Source: Protaetiibacter mangrovi (GTDB lineage Bacteria > Actinomycetota > Actinomycetes > Actinomycetales > Microbacteriaceae). Taken from it: DNA of 64,000 bases. Both the position numbers and the translations under genes were made by a program. Location of the stretch: assembly GCF_024752305.1 (NCBI RefSeq), contig NZ_JANTHX010000007.1, positions 464,306 through 528,305 on the forward strand, read 5' to 3'. Shown here piece by piece: positions 6,240 through 13,393 of the stretch. Under the pieces are notes generated by a model, which did not search any database, was not told the DNA's origin, and worked only from the letters and a program-made list of their open reading frames with translations. The first letter of the stretch is position 1; each line of letters starts with the position of its first letter.

Positions 6240-6458
6240 ATGGCGACGATCCTGATGTTCCACCACGTGTACGGGCTCACGGACGGGGTCGTGGCGGTGG
6301 CCGACTGGCTTCGTGAGGGCGGTCACGTCGTGCACACGCCCGACCTGTTCGACGGTCACGTCTTCACGTCGATGGACGAGGGCTTCGCCTACGCCCGACG
6401 CGACGACGTCGACACGGATGCGCGGGCCGACGCGGCCGCGAGCGAACTGCGGGACTAG
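6240..6458 (+). pseudogene. Dienelactone hydrolase family gene, 3'-truncated remnant
   Basis: The first 55 or so residues (ATILMFHHVYGLTDGV..., then VHTPDLFDGHVF, SMDEGFAYAR) match the N-terminus of the alpha/beta-hydrolase dienelactone hydrolase family, which normally runs to about 190-240 residues. After ARRDD the similarity to the family pattern is lost and the frame stops at 6458, so the catalytic Cys/Asp/His are all missing. It starts 1 nt after the XRE-MmyB stop, preceded by a GGAG site, so it was once part of that operon. It abuts a MarR remnant, marking a deletion or insertion point. Confidence 0.75.
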
Positions 6459-6667
6459 TCGATCGCGAGGCGAACCCAGACGACGGACGCAGTTCCTTCG
6501 CGAGCATTAGCAAGGTGGGTCGCGCGCAGCTTGAGAAGGCAGCTCCGGCCCATCGCGCAACGATTGCTGACGCGATGAGCGGTAGCCTCACTGGCGCCGA
6601 GATTCAACAGCTCGCTGATCTGCTCGAGAAGCTGAACACGGGTAGCGAGCTCGATCCACGGCGCTAG
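6452..6667 (+). pseudogene. MarR family regulator, 5'-truncated remnant
   Basis: Read in the frame ending at TAG 6665-6667, the sequence encodes GLVDREANPDDGRSSFASIS, the wing of a MarR winged helix with its DxxDGR signature. The typical MarR C-terminal dimerisation helices follow (KVGRAQLEKAAPAHRATIAD, then LTGAEIQQLADLLEKL). The N-terminal half, including the recognition helix, is absent and no start codon is available. The frame differs from that of the hydrolase remnant it touches, so the two were joined by recombination. Its stop codon overlaps, on the other strand, the stop of the last gene of the defence operon. Confidence 0.7.
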
Positions 6668-7500
6668 TCGCAGTCCGCCGCGTCCTTGAGTTGACTTTGT
6701 TGAGTCCACGTAGCGAACGTGCCGGGGCTATCCGAGCTGCAGATGGTTCGAGATAGCACCAGGCTCGAGGGAACAATCGCCACGGCCCGCTCGTCTGTCA
6801 GCAGCGTGGTCCAATCTGAGTCCGCCTGCAGCACGTAGGCGACCACCGAGGGTGAATCAGCGAGCTCGATCTGTTCGATAGGTAGCCACATGTTCTTGGG
6901 CGAGATGAGCACCCCAATCACCACAGCCATGACGGTGGCCATGGAGTCGGGCCCTGCCCTTCCCTCAGCAATGCGGGGCCATCGACGCTTTGCGGCGCGC
7001 CACCCGAAAGCGAGACCGAGAAGAGCAGCCGCGAGCGCGAGAAGTCCCAAGAGGAGGGTCCAGCTCGTCGTGTACAGGAGCACCAAGGCCGCAATCGGGA
7101 CAGCAATCGAAGTCGCCCCCGGGTGCCGTGCGATCGTTCGGAGGGCTCTCACACGCGCCTTGCTGTCAGTGACCAGAACCACCACCGCAACGCCGACGAG
7201 AGCGGGCACCAACGAAACCATCGTGCCCACCAGCACCGCCGGGATATCGAGTGTGCGCAGCAGCACCAGGAACAGCGAGGTATCGCCACCCGAATACATC
7301 CAGATCCGCACCGCGGCCGCTGCTAACGGAACAATTGCAATCAGCAGAGCCGTGTCGAGCCCAATGCCCGGGTGGCTGTCCACCTCCGGTCGGGGGGCGG
7401 GCTCTCGCTTCGCGCGACGCTTCAGAGCGGATCTCACTGCTGAATCGTGCCGCGAAGCCGTCACTCCTGCCACACCCCTTGGTGGGGGTGCTGGGGCCAT
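6664..7500 (-). CDS. Membrane protein, fifth gene of the Qat operon
   Basis: 278 residues. A polar, basic N-terminus of about 45 residues is followed by four or five membrane segments (for example GLDTALLIAIVPLAAAAVRI, IPAVLVGTMVSLVPALVGVA, LLLGLLALAAALLGLAFGW, SMATVMAVVIGVLI) and an outside-or-inside C-terminal domain of about 75 residues with two cysteines (CSSD and DCD). It begins 3 nt after the qatD stop, so it is cotranscribed with qatABCD. I do not recognise it as a standard Qat component. It could be an accessory effector or an immunity protein, or simply a hitch-hiking gene. No Shine-Dalgarno at good spacing is seen, consistent with translational coupling. Confidence 0.75.
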   Translation of the reverse strand: MAPAPPPRGVAGVTASRHDSAVRSALKRRAKREPAPRPEVDSHPGIGLDTALLIAIVPLAAAAVRIWMYSGGDTSLFLVLLRTLDIPAVLVGTMVSLVPALVGVAVVVLVTDSKARVRALRTIARHPGATSIAVPIAALVLLYTTSWTLLLGLLALAAALLGLAFGWRAAKRRWPRIAEGRAGPDSMATVMAVVIGVLISPKNMWLPIEQIELADSPSVVAYVLQADSDWTTLLTDERAVAIVPSSLVLSRTICSSDSPGTFATWTQQSQLKDAADCD

Positions 7501-7503
7501 CGA

Positions 7504-8262
7504 TCAGCGCGAACTCCCTGCTTCGTCGCAGAGCACGACGAGGCGCTTTGGAATCCCGACCACCGAGGCATCTCGGATCAGGCTCCCGAGGGTGATGTAC
7601 CAATTCCGGCGAACTCTCTCCGGGCGCAGCCGAGTCAATCGCGCCACTGTCGCTTCCAGCGCACTGATGTCTCCTGGTCGAGCGGCACCGGTCTTGCCAC
7701 GAGACGCAGGAAAATCTGTCTCGGGAAGCACTCGTTCGTACGGCAAGGCCTTCAGCGCGTCATCGGGCATCGCCGCATTCACCGAAAAGTAGCAACCAAG
7801 TTCGATCGCGCGGCGGATGTCGGTCACATCGCCGAGAAACCAATGAAGCACCACACCGCGGTTGCCGGACTGCTCGACCGCGTCGAGAACCTCCCGGACT
7901 CGTCCAGCGCTGTGGAGGGAGACTATGCGCCCCTGTGCTGCGGCTAGCGCCTCGACCAGCATTGCCCGATGCGGCGCGGAACTTCCACGCCGATCCAGAC
8001 CTACTTCACCCACGAGAAAGTTCGTCTGCGCCAATGACTCGAACCTCTTCAAGTCCCACGAGTCCACTGCGCCGCGGACGCCCGGATGCGCACCGATCGC
8101 CCAGTAGATCCCATCCTGAGTGTTCGAAATCGCAACCTCAGCGTCGTCTAGTGTCCTCGTCATCGCGAAGACTTGGGCACCCTCCAAGGTCGCGACCTGG
8201 CGCCGCGTGACCGTGGGATCGATATGGGCGTGGCAATCAAGGGCGGGGAAGTCGAACGGCAC
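7504..8262 (-). CDS. qatD: QatD, TatD-family metal-dependent nuclease of the Qat defence system
   Basis: 252 residues with the TatD hydrolase metal-site motifs in order: DCHAHID (9-15), GAHPG (57-61), GEVGLD (85-90), SLHSAG with H117, LHWF with H140, and ETDFP with D183. TatD proteins are 3'-5' DNases with a TIM-barrel fold, and QatD is the TatD-like subunit of the four-gene anti-phage system Qat. The GTG start at 8262 has a GGAGGAG ribosome site and lies inside the end of qatC (26-nt overlap), so translation is coupled. All metal ligands appear present, so the enzyme should be active. Gene order A-B-C-D supports the assignment over a housekeeping TatD. Confidence 0.9.
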   Translation of the reverse strand: MPFDFPALDCHAHIDPTVTRRQVATLEGAQVFAMTRTLDDAEVAISNTQDGIYWAIGAHPGVRGAVDSWDLKRFESLAQTNFLVGEVGLDRRGSSAPHRAMLVEALAAAQGRIVSLHSAGRVREVLDAVEQSGNRGVVLHWFLGDVTDIRRAIELGCYFSVNAAMPDDALKALPYERVLPETDFPASRGKTGAARPGDISALEATVARLTRLRPERVRRNWYITLGSLIRDASVVGIPKRLVVLCDEAGSSR

Positions 8263-9508
8263 GAAGCTCCTCCAACCCGCGATGAACCAGGTCGATCACA
8301 GCGTCAAAGTCTGTCCCGCCCGGCCATCGACCCGAGGCCAGAATCGCTACATCCGGAATGCCGCCGGCGAGAGCTTCGCGGATTGAATAGATGTCGCGGC
8401 TCCGCGCCTCGACGAGATCCTTCCGATGACCGCCACTCAGCGCGTCACACGCGTACGTCGAGGGGTCGCGCATGCCCGCAGCGATGAAACTCCCCCGCCG
8501 AACCACACACGCCACGCAGAGCCCGCAGTTCAGATTGGGGTCCGCGTGAAATCGCTGCGTGTTTCCCCGACCGCACGAATATGACGCGGCGGTGACTGGC
8601 GCCCACCTCTTGGACCTCAACTCCGTTTTCGCCTGCCCTACGAGCTCGCCCTTGGTGAGGGCAGAGAAGGGGTTAACCACGGCGACTTCAATCGACAGCG
8701 AATCGAGCAGCGCATTCACAAGGGCGAACGTGTACGGATGCGTCGATCGTGTTGTCAGGGTGCCACCGCGCCCGGCGTCGAGAGGGGCATTGATGCTCGT
8801 GAAGCCGTTCTCCGGAACCCACACCTCCGGCGCCCCGTCATTCTCCGCATGAAGGACGGCCATGACCATGAAGAGGAGGGAACGCATACGCGGCCCGTGG
8901 TTCTTTCGGTCAGAAGCATCCGCCAGGAGCAGCTCTTCGAGTCGATAGGTCGCGTCGGCTCCCAGCGCGCCGGCGATCAGGTTCTGTGCATGACGCACCG
9001 CTGTGGAGTAGTCGCGGGCTCCTACAAAGCCGACCGCGGCACCGTCTTTCATTCCGATGACGGCACCGGCCAGCGAGTCAAGTCCACCCGAGAGAAGTTG
9101 AATCCGATCGAGGCCCAGCGAAGTCACCTGAGTGGCGTCCGACGCGTGAGCCGACTGGTGGATCACAACAGTCCATCGATCGCCCGTGAGCCACCGAGCC
9201 AGGTCGACTAGCGCATTGAGCACGTCCTCGGTCCACCGCGCAGAATCTGCAACATGTACATGGACCTCCAAGTCTCGGTGGAGGGAGACGGCTGGCTTTT
9301 CGACCAGGCTGTCGGCGAGATAGAGCGCGGCGACGATCCGGAATAGATCTCGAGTTGAGCCCGAGGCTGCCGAGAATTCCGCGAGGCCCCACTGCAAAGT
9401 GGTTGTGATTGATCCGGCTGTCCCCGGAGAGACGGGCCACACAATCTGCCCGGCGCCACCAACCTCGGACGGTGTTCCAGACGGAAGCACTTCGAACACA
9501 TGCGTCAT
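8237..9508 (-). CDS. qatC: QatC, QueC-like PP-loop enzyme of the Qat defence system
   Basis: 423 residues from ATG 9508, which overlaps the qatB stop in an ATGA arrangement and has a GGAGGGG ribosome site. An in-frame upstream start (9535) would overlap qatB further and is less likely. The PP-loop ATP motif LLSGGLDS lies at 138-145, and a zinc-type cysteine cluster (C312, C328, C331, C334; NCGLCVAC) lies near the end. Both are shared with QueC, the 7-cyano-7-deazaguanine synthase. The protein is much longer than housekeeping QueC (about 220-230 residues) because of an N-terminal extension, as is usual for QatC. No other deazaguanine gene is nearby, so a queuosine role is unlikely. The chemical target in Qat defence is not settled as far as I know. 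Confidence 0.92.
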   Translation of the reverse strand: MTHVFEVLPSGTPSEVGGAGQIVWPVSPGTAGSITTTLQWGLAEFSAASGSTRDLFRIVAALYLADSLVEKPAVSLHRDLEVHVHVADSARWTEDVLNALVDLARWLTGDRWTVVIHQSAHASDATQVTSLGLDRIQLLSGGLDSLAGAVIGMKDGAAVGFVGARDYSTAVRHAQNLIAGALGADATYRLEELLLADASDRKNHGPRMRSLLFMVMAVLHAENDGAPEVWVPENGFTSINAPLDAGRGGTLTTRSTHPYTFALVNALLDSLSIEVAVVNPFSALTKGELVGQAKTELRSKRWAPVTAASYSCGRGNTQRFHADPNLNCGLCVACVVRRGSFIAAGMRDPSTYACDALSGGHRKDLVEARSRDIYSIREALAGGIPDVAILASGRWPGGTDFDAVIDLVHRGLEELRAVRLPRP

Positions 9509-10251
9509 GAGGTCCCCTCCACGAACTCCTTGCACGCTCGAGCTGCAAGTCCAGAGGCGTAGTCCGCCACGTTCTGGGGCGACTTCGAGGTCAGCACATC
9601 GGCAACCTGATTCACGCGCGCGCGGATCCAGTTCTTGACTTTGGTCTCGAATGCCTTCACGGCTCCGTCAGCACGAGCGCGAATGTCCTTGCGTGCCGAC
9701 AACTGGACTTTGGCGAGCTGCCAGGCAAGAGCAGACACGAACTGCCCGATGCGCGCGGCCAGAGTGGATCCAGTCTGTCCAGAGGCGAGCGTGGCAAGGA
9801 CAGCTTCCGCAACCGCCTGATCATCAGGATGGGACGATGGGCCAAGAATGAGTGCAGAGAGCTCGAGATAGAGGGCCATGCCCGACAATCCGTCGAGCTG
9901 GCTGAGGTCAATGCCAAGCTCAGCGAGTTCGGCATCGTCGCCGGCTTCGACTGCCTCAACCGCCGCGAGGACAAGTGCGCCTCGCGCCGCCTGCCGCGTA
10001 AAGGCTGGCTGCGTCCGTCCCTCGCGACCATCACCTGAAGCGCTCGAGCCCCCGCCTGAGCGGCTGGAGGCAAGGAGGTCGGCGACGCGGTACGACCGTC
10101 CGGATGTGTCACCTCGCGACAGAGCCTTGCCCAAAGCCGCACCGAATGCCGTAGACAATGAGTTCCCCGCCGGACTGCCAATCTCGGTCGATGCATTGGA
10201 GGCGGCCGCGTTCCAGGCGCTCGAACCGCCGAAAGCGTTAGATGTACCCAC
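9505..10251 (-). CDS. qatB: QatB, component of the Qat defence system
   Basis: 248 residues. The N-terminus MGTSNAFGGSSAW, rich in glycine and serine, is characteristic of QatB. The rest is predicted helical with alanine-rich segments, without catalytic motifs or membrane segments. The GTG start shares its first base with the last base of the qatA stop (TAGTG), and the stop overlaps the qatC start (ATGA), so the three genes are tightly coupled. QatB has no assigned biochemical activity. The identification rests on the N-terminal signature and its position between the KAP NTPase and the QueC-like gene. Confidence 0.88.
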   Translation of the reverse strand: MGTSNAFGGSSAWNAAASNASTEIGSPAGNSLSTAFGAALGKALSRGDTSGRSYRVADLLASSRSGGGSSASGDGREGRTQPAFTRQAARGALVLAAVEAVEAGDDAELAELGIDLSQLDGLSGMALYLELSALILGPSSHPDDQAVAEAVLATLASGQTGSTLAARIGQFVSALAWQLAKVQLSARKDIRARADGAVKAFETKVKNWIRARVNQVADVLTSKSPQNVADYASGLAARACKEFVEGTS

Positions 10252-12002
10252 TAGACGACTTCACCCCTCATCTCGTCGCGGATTGCATCTGCAAACATCG
10301 GCTCGGCCGCTCGGAGTTCTAGGAGCGCCTCCAGTGTCGCGGGGTAGTTTGCGAAGTACGGCAGCTCGGTGCGGGTGATCGAAGAAAGCAGGTCAGCGCG
10401 ATTGAGCACGCTGGAGACTGGCTCTATGAGGTCGACTCTCCTGAGGGAAATACTCTGCAACGAGTCAAGCGCCTGATCTCTACGCCCCCCGAGCAACGCG
10501 GCCGCGAGTTGTTGAGCAACCGCCGCATCTCCGGTCTGAGGCTCCTCCGCGAGATCGTCTTGGGCGCCTTGCCGGACGAGCTCGCTCTCGGAGAGGAGCC
10601 TCCGAAGCAAGCGAGTTTCTTCGTCGTTGAGATCCGGACCCACGCTGACGTTCGCCACGACGGTCGCAGCGAGCGAAAGGTACGCGGTCACATCTTCCGG
10701 CTTCTCGCTGAGCTGCACACCATTCCGCGCCCAAGTGACTAGGGCCGCATCAGGCCCAGAGTCGTCCGCGTTCTCCCAACCCCGGAGCGTCTCGCTCCGC
10801 GCGTCGAGCGCCTGAGCGCCGAGTTCCGCGAACTTCGTGGGGAAGTTCTGCTCCAGGACCCATAGCTTCATCACCGACCCCAAGTCGATCGCTCCGCTGG
10901 TCGCTCCAAGTACTCGTGCCCTGATCGCCAGGTTGTTGAGAAATCGCTTGAGCTGACGGGGCGTCGATGACTGCGAAGGTGCCATGCCATAGACCATCGA
11001 CGCAGCCTGTTCCACCATCTCACGGGTGGGCAGCTCGTCAACCATTCCCTCGTATGCGTAAGGGGAAACGCCTTCCGTCCGACGAGCGAGGCTCGCCTGA
11101 GCCAGACGCGCTTGGACCGCCTTCTCAGCGTCCGCGCACGCGAGAAGGAGAGTGAGGTACGCCTCCGCACCAGCCAGCGTCATCTGCGGGAGGGTGAAGG
11201 GCAATTGGATGACTTTCTCGGTGTAGCTGTCTGCGAAGCGACCTCGCGCTTGCCTATCCAAGGCGTCTCGGAGACTCTCTCGAATGAAGCTGTCGTCGGC
11301 CGCGATGACGAAGGCCATCCCCTCGACACTCAGAAACAGCTTTATTGCCTCCAATGCTCCGAGAACGTCACCCGGCAGACACCGGTCGAGATCGTCCACG
11401 AGCACTACCACTCGATCGACGGTGGGGAGCTCGGAAATCAGTTTGCCGAACTGCTTCCGGAACTCGCGCATGCCAACGCGCATGCTCGCCTGTTCAGGCG
11501 TCGGATCCTTCGGCGTCAGCGCGTCGACGAAGCCTGGAATGTCGGGAGTGAGAGTGACGAGTGACTTCGCTGCGACCTGAGCGACCTTGGTCCATGAGAT
11601 CCGGCGACTGAGCTCGACGACCTTCTCCTTCAAGGTTCCAAGCGCCGCCGCCGCTCGTTCCTTCACCTCCCCTTCGGCGAGAAGAGACTGGCGACGCTCG
11701 TACTCGTCCTGAACTCCCTCCAGGACTCGCGTGATCAGGGTGCCCCGCGGGTCTCCCGTGTCGACGAACTCCCAGGGGTCGACCTTCACAACAAGAACAC
11801 CGTCTCGTCGCCGCAACTCCAACTCGACGAGGCGAAGCGCCGTACTTTTACCGCCACCCCAGGGCGAGTTGATTCCCACCGTCACTGGGTCAAGACGATC
11901 GTCCAAGGCCGCATCCGCGATGGCGACCGCTATTGGTTCGAGACCGAGTAGATCGATCGACGCAGGATTGTCGTCGAAAAGGGAAAAACCGTGGGGTGGC
12001 AT
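10251..12002 (-). CDS. qatA: QatA, KAP-family P-loop NTPase of the Qat defence system
   Basis: 583 residues from ATG 12002, chosen because GGAG sits 5 nt upstream. An in-frame GTG at 12035 lacks such a site. Walker A is GINSPWGGGKST (43-54) and Walker B VLVDDLDRC (200-208), the typical KAP NTPase pair with a helical insert between them. Unlike many KAP proteins, no clear double membrane segment is seen, although AKSLVTLTPDIPGFVDAL is moderately hydrophobic. The C-terminal 250 residues are helical. QatA is the lead gene of the qatABCD anti-phage system. The operon reads away from the aminotransferase gene across a gap of about 150 nt that must hold its promoter. I could not pick a convincing -35/-10 pair there. 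Confidence 0.92.
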   Translation of the reverse strand: MPPHGFSLFDDNPASIDLLGLEPIAVAIADAALDDRLDPVTVGINSPWGGGKSTALRLVELELRRRDGVLVVKVDPWEFVDTGDPRGTLITRVLEGVQDEYERRQSLLAEGEVKERAAAALGTLKEKVVELSRRISWTKVAQVAAKSLVTLTPDIPGFVDALTPKDPTPEQASMRVGMREFRKQFGKLISELPTVDRVVVLVDDLDRCLPGDVLGALEAIKLFLSVEGMAFVIAADDSFIRESLRDALDRQARGRFADSYTEKVIQLPFTLPQMTLAGAEAYLTLLLACADAEKAVQARLAQASLARRTEGVSPYAYEGMVDELPTREMVEQAASMVYGMAPSQSSTPRQLKRFLNNLAIRARVLGATSGAIDLGSVMKLWVLEQNFPTKFAELGAQALDARSETLRGWENADDSGPDAALVTWARNGVQLSEKPEDVTAYLSLAATVVANVSVGPDLNDEETRLLRRLLSESELVRQGAQDDLAEEPQTGDAAVAQQLAAALLGGRRDQALDSLQSISLRRVDLIEPVSSVLNRADLLSSITRTELPYFANYPATLEALLELRAAEPMFADAIRDEMRGEVV

Positions 12003-12139
12003 TTCAACTCCGAAATGGTCGGCTAATCCACCCACAGGTCTTCACTCCAACGCAAGTACCCAATCGCAGGGACGAAACTGTCGCTCAACTGGGTCCGGGA
12101 CCGAAAGGCCACGCCTCCCCCGCGAGCCCGGCGCCCTCA

Positions 12140-12152
12140 TAGGCTGGGACCG
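12140..12152 (+). promoter_or_regulatory. -10 element and leaderless start of the class V aminotransferase-like gene
   Basis: TAGGCT (12140-12145) lies 6 nt before the GTG start at 12152, with no ribosome site between. This is the same spacing as at 3696 and 26550, and it implies a leaderless transcript. The -35 region is unremarkable. Confidence 0.45.
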
Positions 12153-13393
12153 TGAGCATCGCCCGTTCTCCGGAGGCCCGCACGTCCACGCCCGCTGATG
12201 CCCCACCACCTCTCCTCACGCGGTCGGGCGTCCCTGCCGCTGCGCTCTGGGCACTCGATCCTCAGGTCGTCCACCTCAACCACGGCTCCTTCGGCGCCGC
12301 GCCGCGTTCAACGGTCGAGCTGAGGTCAGTGCTGTTGGCCGAGGTCGATGCGAATCCTCTTCGATGGCACCTCAGCGTGCAACCGCGCCGAGAGGAAGCG
12401 CGGCTGGTCGTCGCTCGGTTCCTGGGTTCTGATCCGCGATCCCTGGCTTTCGTCCCGAGCGCGAGCGCGGGCACGACGGCAGTGCTTCGCGAGCTTTCGG
12501 GCGGCGAGGTGGTGGTCACCGATCACGCCTATGGTGCGCTTGCGAAGCACGTGGCGCTCCAAGCGGCGCGAGTGGGCGCGCGCGTCGTGACCGCGCGTGT
12601 GCCACTGTCGGCGACAGCTGCCGAGGCCACTGCCGCGGTCCTCGACGCCATCGGCCCCGAAACGCGCTTGGTGGTGCTCGACCATGTCACGTCAGCGACG
12701 GCTCGCCTGATGCCGGTGGAGCAGGTGTCAGAGGCGGCGCGTGCTCGTGGCGTGGCTGTGCTCGTCGATGCGGCCCACGCCCCCGGAATGCTCGAGGCTC
12801 CGGCGGCGACGACGGCGGATGCGTGGGTCGGCAACCTGCACAAGTGGGCATGCGGCGTGCGGGGTTCCGCGGTGACCGTGCTGAATGCGGCGACAGCCGA
12901 GCGAGTGCGGCCGCCGATCGAGTCGTGGTCCAGCGACGCGGCGTACCCGGAATCGTTCGACGAGCAGGGCACCGCGGACTCGACGGGATACCTGGCATCG
13001 GCCGCCGGAATCACCGCGCTGGAGGAGGCGATCGGTTGGGATCGTATCCGGCTGTATCAAGGTGAGCTCGTGTCCTACGGGCGCGACATAATCGCCGCAG
13101 CATTCGCATATGCGACGGGCGAGGACCATCGTGTGGAGGTGGGTATGCCAGCTCCATCGATGGCGCTCGTGGCTTTGCCGTCGGGGCTTGCAGCGCAACC
13201 AGAGAGTGCTGCAGCGCTGCGCCAACGGATCGCCGATGAGCTCGGCTTCGAGACGCAAATCGCCGACTGGGGCGGTGTGGCGCGGCTTCGGCTGTCGGCG
13301 CACGCCTATTCGACGTCGCAGGATTTCGATCGTTTCGCCGAGACGGTGGTGCCCGCTCTCGTGCAATGGTCGCGAAGCGCCTCGAAGAGGTGA
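12152..13393 (+). CDS. PLP-dependent class V aminotransferase-fold enzyme (isopenicillin N epimerase-like)
   Basis: 413 residues of fold-type I PLP enzyme, class V subgroup. The N-terminal HLNHGSFGAAPRSTVE motif is typical of the CefD/isopenicillin N epimerase-like group. ARGVAVLVDAAHAPGM carries the Asp that contacts the PLP ring nitrogen, and the PLP-binding lysine is K231 in GNLHKW. Reactions in this group include epimerisation, desulfuration and transamination, so the substrate cannot be named. The first 30 residues are low-complexity and may be dispensable. It is divergent from the Qat operon and convergent with the secreted propeller gene, separated from it by a strong hairpin. Confidence 0.85.
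   Translation: MSIARSPEARTSTPADAPPPLLTRSGVPAAALWALDPQVVHLNHGSFGAAPRSTVELRSVLLAEVDANPLRWHLSVQPRREEARLVVARFLGSDPRSLAFVPSASAGTTAVLRELSGGEVVVTDHAYGALAKHVALQAARVGARVVTARVPLSATAAEATAAVLDAIGPETRLVVLDHVTSATARLMPVEQVSEAARARGVAVLVDAAHAPGMLEAPAATTADAWVGNLHKWACGVRGSAVTVLNAATAERVRPPIESWSSDAAYPESFDEQGTADSTGYLASAAGITALEEAIGWDRIRLYQGELVSYGRDIIAAAFAYATGEDHRVEVGMPAPSMALVALPSGLAAQPESAAALRQRIADELGFETQIADWGGVARLRLSAHAYSTSQDFDRFAETVVPALVQWSRSASKR

Follow-up and report, generated by a model that had tools for sequence, protein, structure and literature searches.

Whether a membrane protein gene standing directly behind an antiphage Qat operon is part of that system, or only its neighbour, is the question raised by this locus. 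The operon lies in a 64,000-nt stretch of the genome of Protaetiibacter mangrovi, a member of the Microbacteriaceae (contig NZ_JANTHX010000007.1, positions 464,306 to 528,305 of the forward strand), which is called the window below, and the additional gene is designated M5. The original prediction for this DNA proposed that M5 might act as an effector or a regulator of Qat. The evidence favours, with good probability, a different reading, in which an acquired segment carries a standard four-gene Qat system and, at its 3′ end, an unrelated island gene that spreads separately.

Layout of the qat genes and M5

The minus strand of the window carries five reading frames in head-to-tail order, qatA, qatB, qatC, qatD and M5:

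qatA, 10251..12035, minus strand: KAP P-loop NTPase; start at ATG 12002 or GTG 12035
qatB, 9505..10251, minus strand: putative QatC substrate; GTG start; N-terminus MGTSNAFGG
qatC, 8237..9508, minus strand: QueC-like enzyme; SGGLDS, RMRSLLF, TRSTHP and CxxCxxRR intact
qatD, 7504..8262, minus strand: TatD-like nuclease; HAHID, GEVGLD, SLH, HWF and ETD
M5, 6664..7500, minus strand: membrane protein; start at ATG 7500, GTG 7464 or GTG 7437
Low-GC block, 6460..12050, no strand: holds M5, qatD to qatA and a MarR-type fragment

The predicted gene order and its overlapping junctions can be read directly in the sequence: qatA and qatB have TAGTG in common (1-nt overlap at 10251), qatB and qatC overlap in ATGA (9505–9508), and qatC overlaps qatD by 26 nt (8237–8262). 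The spacing of M5, placed 3 nt after qatD in the original prediction, is less firm. Three nucleotides do separate the qatD stop (7504) from ATG 7500, but codon scoring offers GTG 7464 or GTG 7437 as alternative starts, with gaps of 39 or 66 nt, and the first membrane segment starts 21–26 residues earlier in five of six aligned homologues (later in the homologue at locus L031). Because the homologue N-termini and the codon scoring disagree with ATG 7500, the start codon is uncertain, and with it the gap (3, 39 or 66 nt). No terminator-like site was found between qatD and M5, and no sigma-70-like promoter within 6400–12300, in a scan not covering other actinobacterial promoter types.

M5 and Qat in other genomes

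In a family sample of 398 genomes, QatC was detected in 12 (E value 1e-10) and strong M5 matches (E<1e-20) in 6, and the window genome was the only one with both (by their handles, both counts come from one and the same set of genomes). A profile search (E 1e-5) with a QatC profile that matched 10/394 class genomes found QatC in none of the seven other M5 genomes, among them that of Galbitalea soli, which carries the closest M5 relative; nor were qat genes present in the stretches read around the seven other close M5 relatives. The converse search gave the same picture. A six-frame search with hidden Markov models found M5 in 0/41 other QatC-like loci within the stretches fetched, so that the direct placement of M5 homologues after qatD, whose frequency the original prediction had asked about, did not recur. 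The closest qat relatives, G334 and G072 (QatC 53% identical), likewise have no M5.

These 42 QatC-like loci comprise the window, 11 from the family, 8 from the class, 10 viral (the best 10 of 46) and 12 plasmid loci (12 opened of 108 records with a QatC match). The gene qatD is called or listed in 31 of the 41 others; at L044 it is present but was dropped by the gene caller. The 41 include two near-duplicate pairs (L130/L131 and L073/L074) with each member counted separately, L071, which begins inside its locus, and viral loci L077 and L079, which have a long QatC-like protein but none of the other Qat genes and may not be Qat. M5 as a standard component of Qat was rejected on the lack of recurrence after qatD in these loci and of QatC in the seven other M5 genomes. 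The suggested role as effector or regulator of Qat fared no better: the close relatives of M5 were found away from qat, an outcome that the original prediction had named as a refutation.

The M5 protein family

At the thresholds applied, Pfam, PADLOC and PHROGs give no match for the window M5; its sole library match is a sub-cutoff one in NCBIfam (E 0.03). For the homologue at L029, Pfam gave FxsA under the cutoff (E 0.0028), and a profile search of the PDB found only chance-level matches, to transmembrane parts of a receptor (best E 0.049). The searches yielded seven further close homologues. Five came from the family sample (E 1e-24 to 1e-52), the named carriers being Galbitalea soli and Herbiconiux moechotypicola, both of Microbacteriaceae genera, and a Micrococcales metagenome assembly; one came from Microbacterium indicum (L048, search of genome contigs) and one from G1427 (E 2.4e-42, among 366 genomes of the genus of G328). 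Identity to the window M5 is 28–41% in the alignment of the first seven sequences; for Galbitalea soli, the closest relative, a value of 42% was also obtained. GGD, WLPxE, YVL and two cysteines in the tail are invariant in seven aligned sequences, and the eighth, at L141, has KGD for GGD and keeps WLPxE, YVL and both cysteines.

Hydropathy averaged over seven homologues gives five membrane segments, and the sequences taken singly give five in 3/7 and four in 4/7, so that the predicted “four-to-five segments” stand. Since lysine and arginine are enriched in the N-terminal stretch and in loops 107–127 and 166–185, and the tail is acidic (3 lysine or arginine vs 11 aspartate or glutamate residues), an N-in, C-out orientation is likely. 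M5 is thus probably a five-pass membrane protein with a 74-residue outward tail, whose two cysteines are likely to be disulfide-bonded.

Beyond these, more remote relatives (E 2.7e-5 to 9e-11) are present in the order's other families (6/396 genomes), and the genus of G328 adds three weak ones; ten weak single-sequence matches in the family sample (E 3.7e-4 to 0.01) are kept outside these counts. As labelled by reading of the sequences, the distant relatives at L059, L061 and L062 have housekeeping-type genes around them, that at L058 is near Fic- and RES-like genes, and, in the genus of G328, those at L142 and L143 lie among ordinary genes and near recombinase-like genes, respectively. The weak match in L144 was missed by the gene caller, and the neighbourhood of L060 was read in part.

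Neighbourhoods of M5

Defence-type genes lie within 4 kb of M5 in 5/8 loci, window included, and differ from locus to locus. At L030 (2894–9702), in a genome of the window's genus, SIR2-HerA comes first, then an OLD/GajA-like ATPase gene, and last M5, which overlaps the ATPase gene by 1 nt in TAATG. This island resembles the window in having an M5 homologue (36–38% identical) as its 3′ gene, there overlapping an ATPase gene by 1 nt, and differs in having SIR2-HerA and an OLD/GajA-like gene in place of any qat gene. At L029 a gene read as a KAP NTPase (PADLOC PifA, 5.7e-62) lies ~640 nt downstream of M5, with IS21-like genes beyond; at L031 M5 and the TcmP and DUF5131 genes (PDC-M30/M41) converge, and at L048 M5 lies near a TIR gene and an integrase. 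A possible nucleotidyltransferase near M5 at L032 (a weak match, at 9.6e-4, to the candidate defence family PDC-M21B) stands among otherwise unremarkable genes, L033 has no recognised gene around M5, and at L141 two unnamed genes come after M5, one of them encoding six predicted membrane segments.

Proteins encoded around M5 matched 105 PADLOC families (53 proteins, 7 loci), compared with 24 families (58 proteins, 7 loci) at control loci chosen from aminotransferase orthologues and distant M5 relatives; this excess, which counts families and not proteins, is suggestive only. Carriage of M5 as phage or plasmid cargo is not supported: one query against 50,697 phage records and three M5 queries against 72,556 plasmid records gave no M5, and neither did a search of viral contigs, which is limited to stretches that fit a short pattern. 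A first scan of genome contigs also returned none, although relatives exist.

Origin of the segment

The segment stands out by its base composition. GC content, measured in 250-nt steps, is ~60–66% across ~6460–12050, with a sharp step to the left flank (68–78%) and a weak one to the right flank (about 64–71%). In five of the eight loci (window, L030, L032, L048 and L141) M5 lies 8–15 GC points under its locus ends. Of five distant relatives measured, that at L143 has a deficit of 10 points and the rest of 0–6. At L032 GC content falls lowest (57%) over a stretch roughly as long as M5, which suggests single-gene transfer there; the adjacent genes, at 63–67%, are also under the locus ends (68%). 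Its QatC-free relatives, varied neighbours and low GC content in 5/8 loci suggest that M5 moves horizontally among islands of Microbacteriaceae and came to rest behind qatD.

At the left edge of the block, a C-terminal MarR-type fragment on the plus strand (6440–6667; NCBIfam MarR-type matches of 8.1e-5 and 1.4e-4, far under cutoff) ends in the same CTAG as the M5 stop codon, and a truncated N-terminal dienelactone-hydrolase-like frame precedes it (6240–6458, plus strand; Pfam DLH 3e-4, just under cutoff). These two fragments are a possible scar at the island edge. In three same-genus genomes compared for the insertion site, the surroundings differ from those of the window. Probably M5 came in along with qat, or else the island already contained it, and its position is therefore explained without a function shared with Qat.

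Interpretations of the M5 gene

The favoured reading can be set out as follows. A horizontally acquired segment probably brought in the Qat system with M5 at its 3′ end. QatC would bind QatB and use ATP to modify the N-terminal glycine of QatB, as proposed for other Qat systems, and QatA and QatD would affect phage range. M5 is probably transcribed with qat here and would nevertheless be an autonomous gene, spreading among Microbacteriaceae islands independently of Qat, lodging beside whatever defence gene is present and most likely acting at the cell envelope without Qat. Several observations weigh against this reading. The failure of M5 and Qat to co-occur in the 397 other genomes is weakly informative because both are rare (the overlap expected by chance is estimated at ~0.14 genome), and the M5 sample is small (8). 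The GC content of M5 (63.9%) matches that of the qat genes (61.9–63.6%), and M5 follows qatD closely. In two of the eight loci, the window and L030, M5 is the last gene of an operon-like defence row, as a functional accessory might be. Low GC content is not general, M5 being 4 points below its locus ends at L029, 1 below at L031 and 3 above at L033, and at L032 the adjoining genes, including the weak PDC-M21B match, are low as well, so that M5 is not shown travelling singly.

The same closeness in the window would be accounted for if M5 were an accessory recruited by this Qat system, a membrane effector or anchor acting after activation by QatBC: it follows head to tail within 3–66 nt, in the same GC block, and with no promoter- or terminator-like site found in between. 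Its absence from 41/41 other QatC-like loci, the lack of QatC in 7/7 other M5 genomes and the sufficiency of QatBC alone against phage lambda-vir, reported in PMC13279940, make such recruitment improbable, while sequence leaves room for a local role of M5 in the Qat of this one genome. Taken with that of L030, the window M5 might also be seen as one instance of an undescribed family of membrane proteins, with about five passes and a secreted, cysteine-paired tail, that joins the 3′ ends of different defence operons (qat and the OLD/GajA-like row) as a common membrane output or control, a proposal to which we give little credence. Equally hard to credit is a promiscuous membrane partner that does the same service for several defence ATPase operons (qat, OLD-like and KAP). 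The defence-type genes near most M5 copies and the two terminal positions speak for it; against it, no clear defence gene is near M5 at L032, L033 or L141, at L031 M5 and its neighbours converge, at L029 ~640 nt lie between M5 and the KAP gene, and the partners have no common part. M5 might instead be a defence or superinfection-exclusion gene that works alone, in keeping with its predicted exported tail, conserved cysteines, island-like location and frequent low GC content. This is doubtful, though a more serious contender, since the distant relatives beside housekeeping-type genes (L059, L061, L062 and L142) suggest a wider membrane role.

On the favoured reading, M5 is a chance neighbour to be kept out of the definition of Qat and a member of an unnamed, island-associated membrane family (6/398 family genomes). 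What remains of interest is this family and the variable slot behind qatD.

The Qat core proteins

The claim of a complete four-gene Qat operon is borne out: the four genes stand on one strand in Qat order, with PADLOC matches for QatA, QatC and QatD, a QatC profile that reaches the solved structures, and the MGTS motif of QatB. QatA matches Pfam KAP_NTPase (3.7e-35) and PADLOC QatA (3e-55); the strict Walker A pattern has no match in it, the corresponding stretch reading SPWGGGKST (GPWGHGKSS in the KAP gene of L029). QatB matches nothing in Pfam, PADLOC or NCBIfam, and its identity rests on its place between qatA and qatC, the MGTS motif and a phmmer match to QatB of related operons (8e-55). 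Its GTG start is followed by GTS, and MGTS opens 17 of 20 chosen QatB starts, window included.

QatC matches PADLOC QatC (1.2e-56) and, at 2.1e-6, the QueC family of Pfam, and solved QatC structures are reached at 2.8e-83 (9zee) and 6.8e-82 by a profile built from 12 QatC proteins of the family. Its ATP and zinc motifs are present (SGGLDS at 140, RMRSLLF at 207, TRSTHP at 253, TKG, and CVACVVRR at 331). Of these, TRSTHP, as read from the motif, may hold the published threonine pair of the substrate site. QatD matches Pfam TatD_DNase (3.9e-23) and PADLOC QatD (2.8e-32) and contains HAHID, GEVGLD, SLH, HWF and ETD. These motifs are read as the metal site.

The NCBIfam scores of QatA (221 bits, curated cutoff 600), QatC (211 bits, cutoff 280) and QatD (118 bits, cutoff 230) all lie under the equivalog cutoffs, and the operon therefore belongs to a diverged branch of Qat. 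The cutoffs may have been set for other lineages, given that the records of four Rhodococcus and Arthrobacter plasmid qat loci carry no Qat names. As judged from its genes, the window Qat is an ordinary, diverged and intact operon that is probably functional.

The slot behind qatD and other qat arrangements

Genes other than M5 occupy the position behind qatD elsewhere. In 3 of 20 non-window loci with a called qatD (L039, L128 and L040), a same-strand gene follows within 60 nt, and these genes belong to candidate defence families, ApeA_NTD1 twice (L039, L128) and DUF3644/restriction-like once (L040). Among 11 plasmid loci listing qatD (12 opened), none lists a same-strand gene that close, the gene tables being incomplete. 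L039, L128 and L040 are like the window in having a further gene that lies at most 54 nt after qatD or overlaps it, and unlike it in that their genes match PDC-S58 and PDC-S19 and encode no predicted membrane segment, whereas M5 is an unrelated membrane protein. The ApeA_NTD1-type gene overlaps the qatD end at both L039 (6753–17794) and L128 (4747–6252), in two genomes of different families, and at L039 type III restriction-modification-like genes run straight into qatA, forming one long defence row. At L040 the DUF3644 and restriction-endonuclease-like gene (10977–11978; PDC-S19, 1.8e-103) begins 54 nt after qatD.

Reduced arrangements were also seen. L132 (6974–9039), L134 (6959–9066) and, similarly, L133 pair a qatB-like gene (MGTS) with qatC, and neither qatA nor qatD was recognised within the 15 kb around them; the qatB frame of L133 is uncalled. 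These three of the eight class-search loci come from one actinomycete genus with genomes of 5.8–9.2 Mb. They are candidate two-gene QatBC systems, and the lack of a recognised qatA or qatD fits the published QatBC core. On plasmid pPAN2 of Paracoccus pantotrophus (L151), qatBC is listed without qatA or qatD beside an IS5-like transposase gene, in a table that omits pseudogenes. On a Rhodococcus pyridinivorans plasmid (L146), an IS1380 transposase gene stands between a 1131-nt P-loop NTPase gene and a qatB-like gene.

Comparison with described Qat systems

According to the published reports, a complex of QatB and QatC is sufficient against phage lambda-vir (PMC13279940), the N-terminal glycine motif of QatB and catalysis by QatC are both essential, and QatA and QatD influence phage range, the chemistry of QatC being unresolved in print (PMC13279940, PMC13329287). 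The main text of PMC13279940 makes no mention of a membrane, transmembrane, fifth or accessory element, and PMC13329287 does not use the word transmembrane and speaks of a membrane only in blotting. Among openly licensed papers, preprints excluded, the titles and abstract beginnings listed name no fifth Qat gene, which does not establish its absence from print.

The window agrees with the qatABCD operons of E. coli and P. aeruginosa (PMC13279940) in gene content and order, in its KAP NTPase and MGTS-type QatB, in a QueC-like QatC with SGGxDS and a zinc motif, and in a TatD-like QatD. It differs from them in its diverged actinobacterial proteins, which score under the NCBIfam equivalog cutoffs, and in the additional 3′ gene, M5, which lies outside the system as described there.

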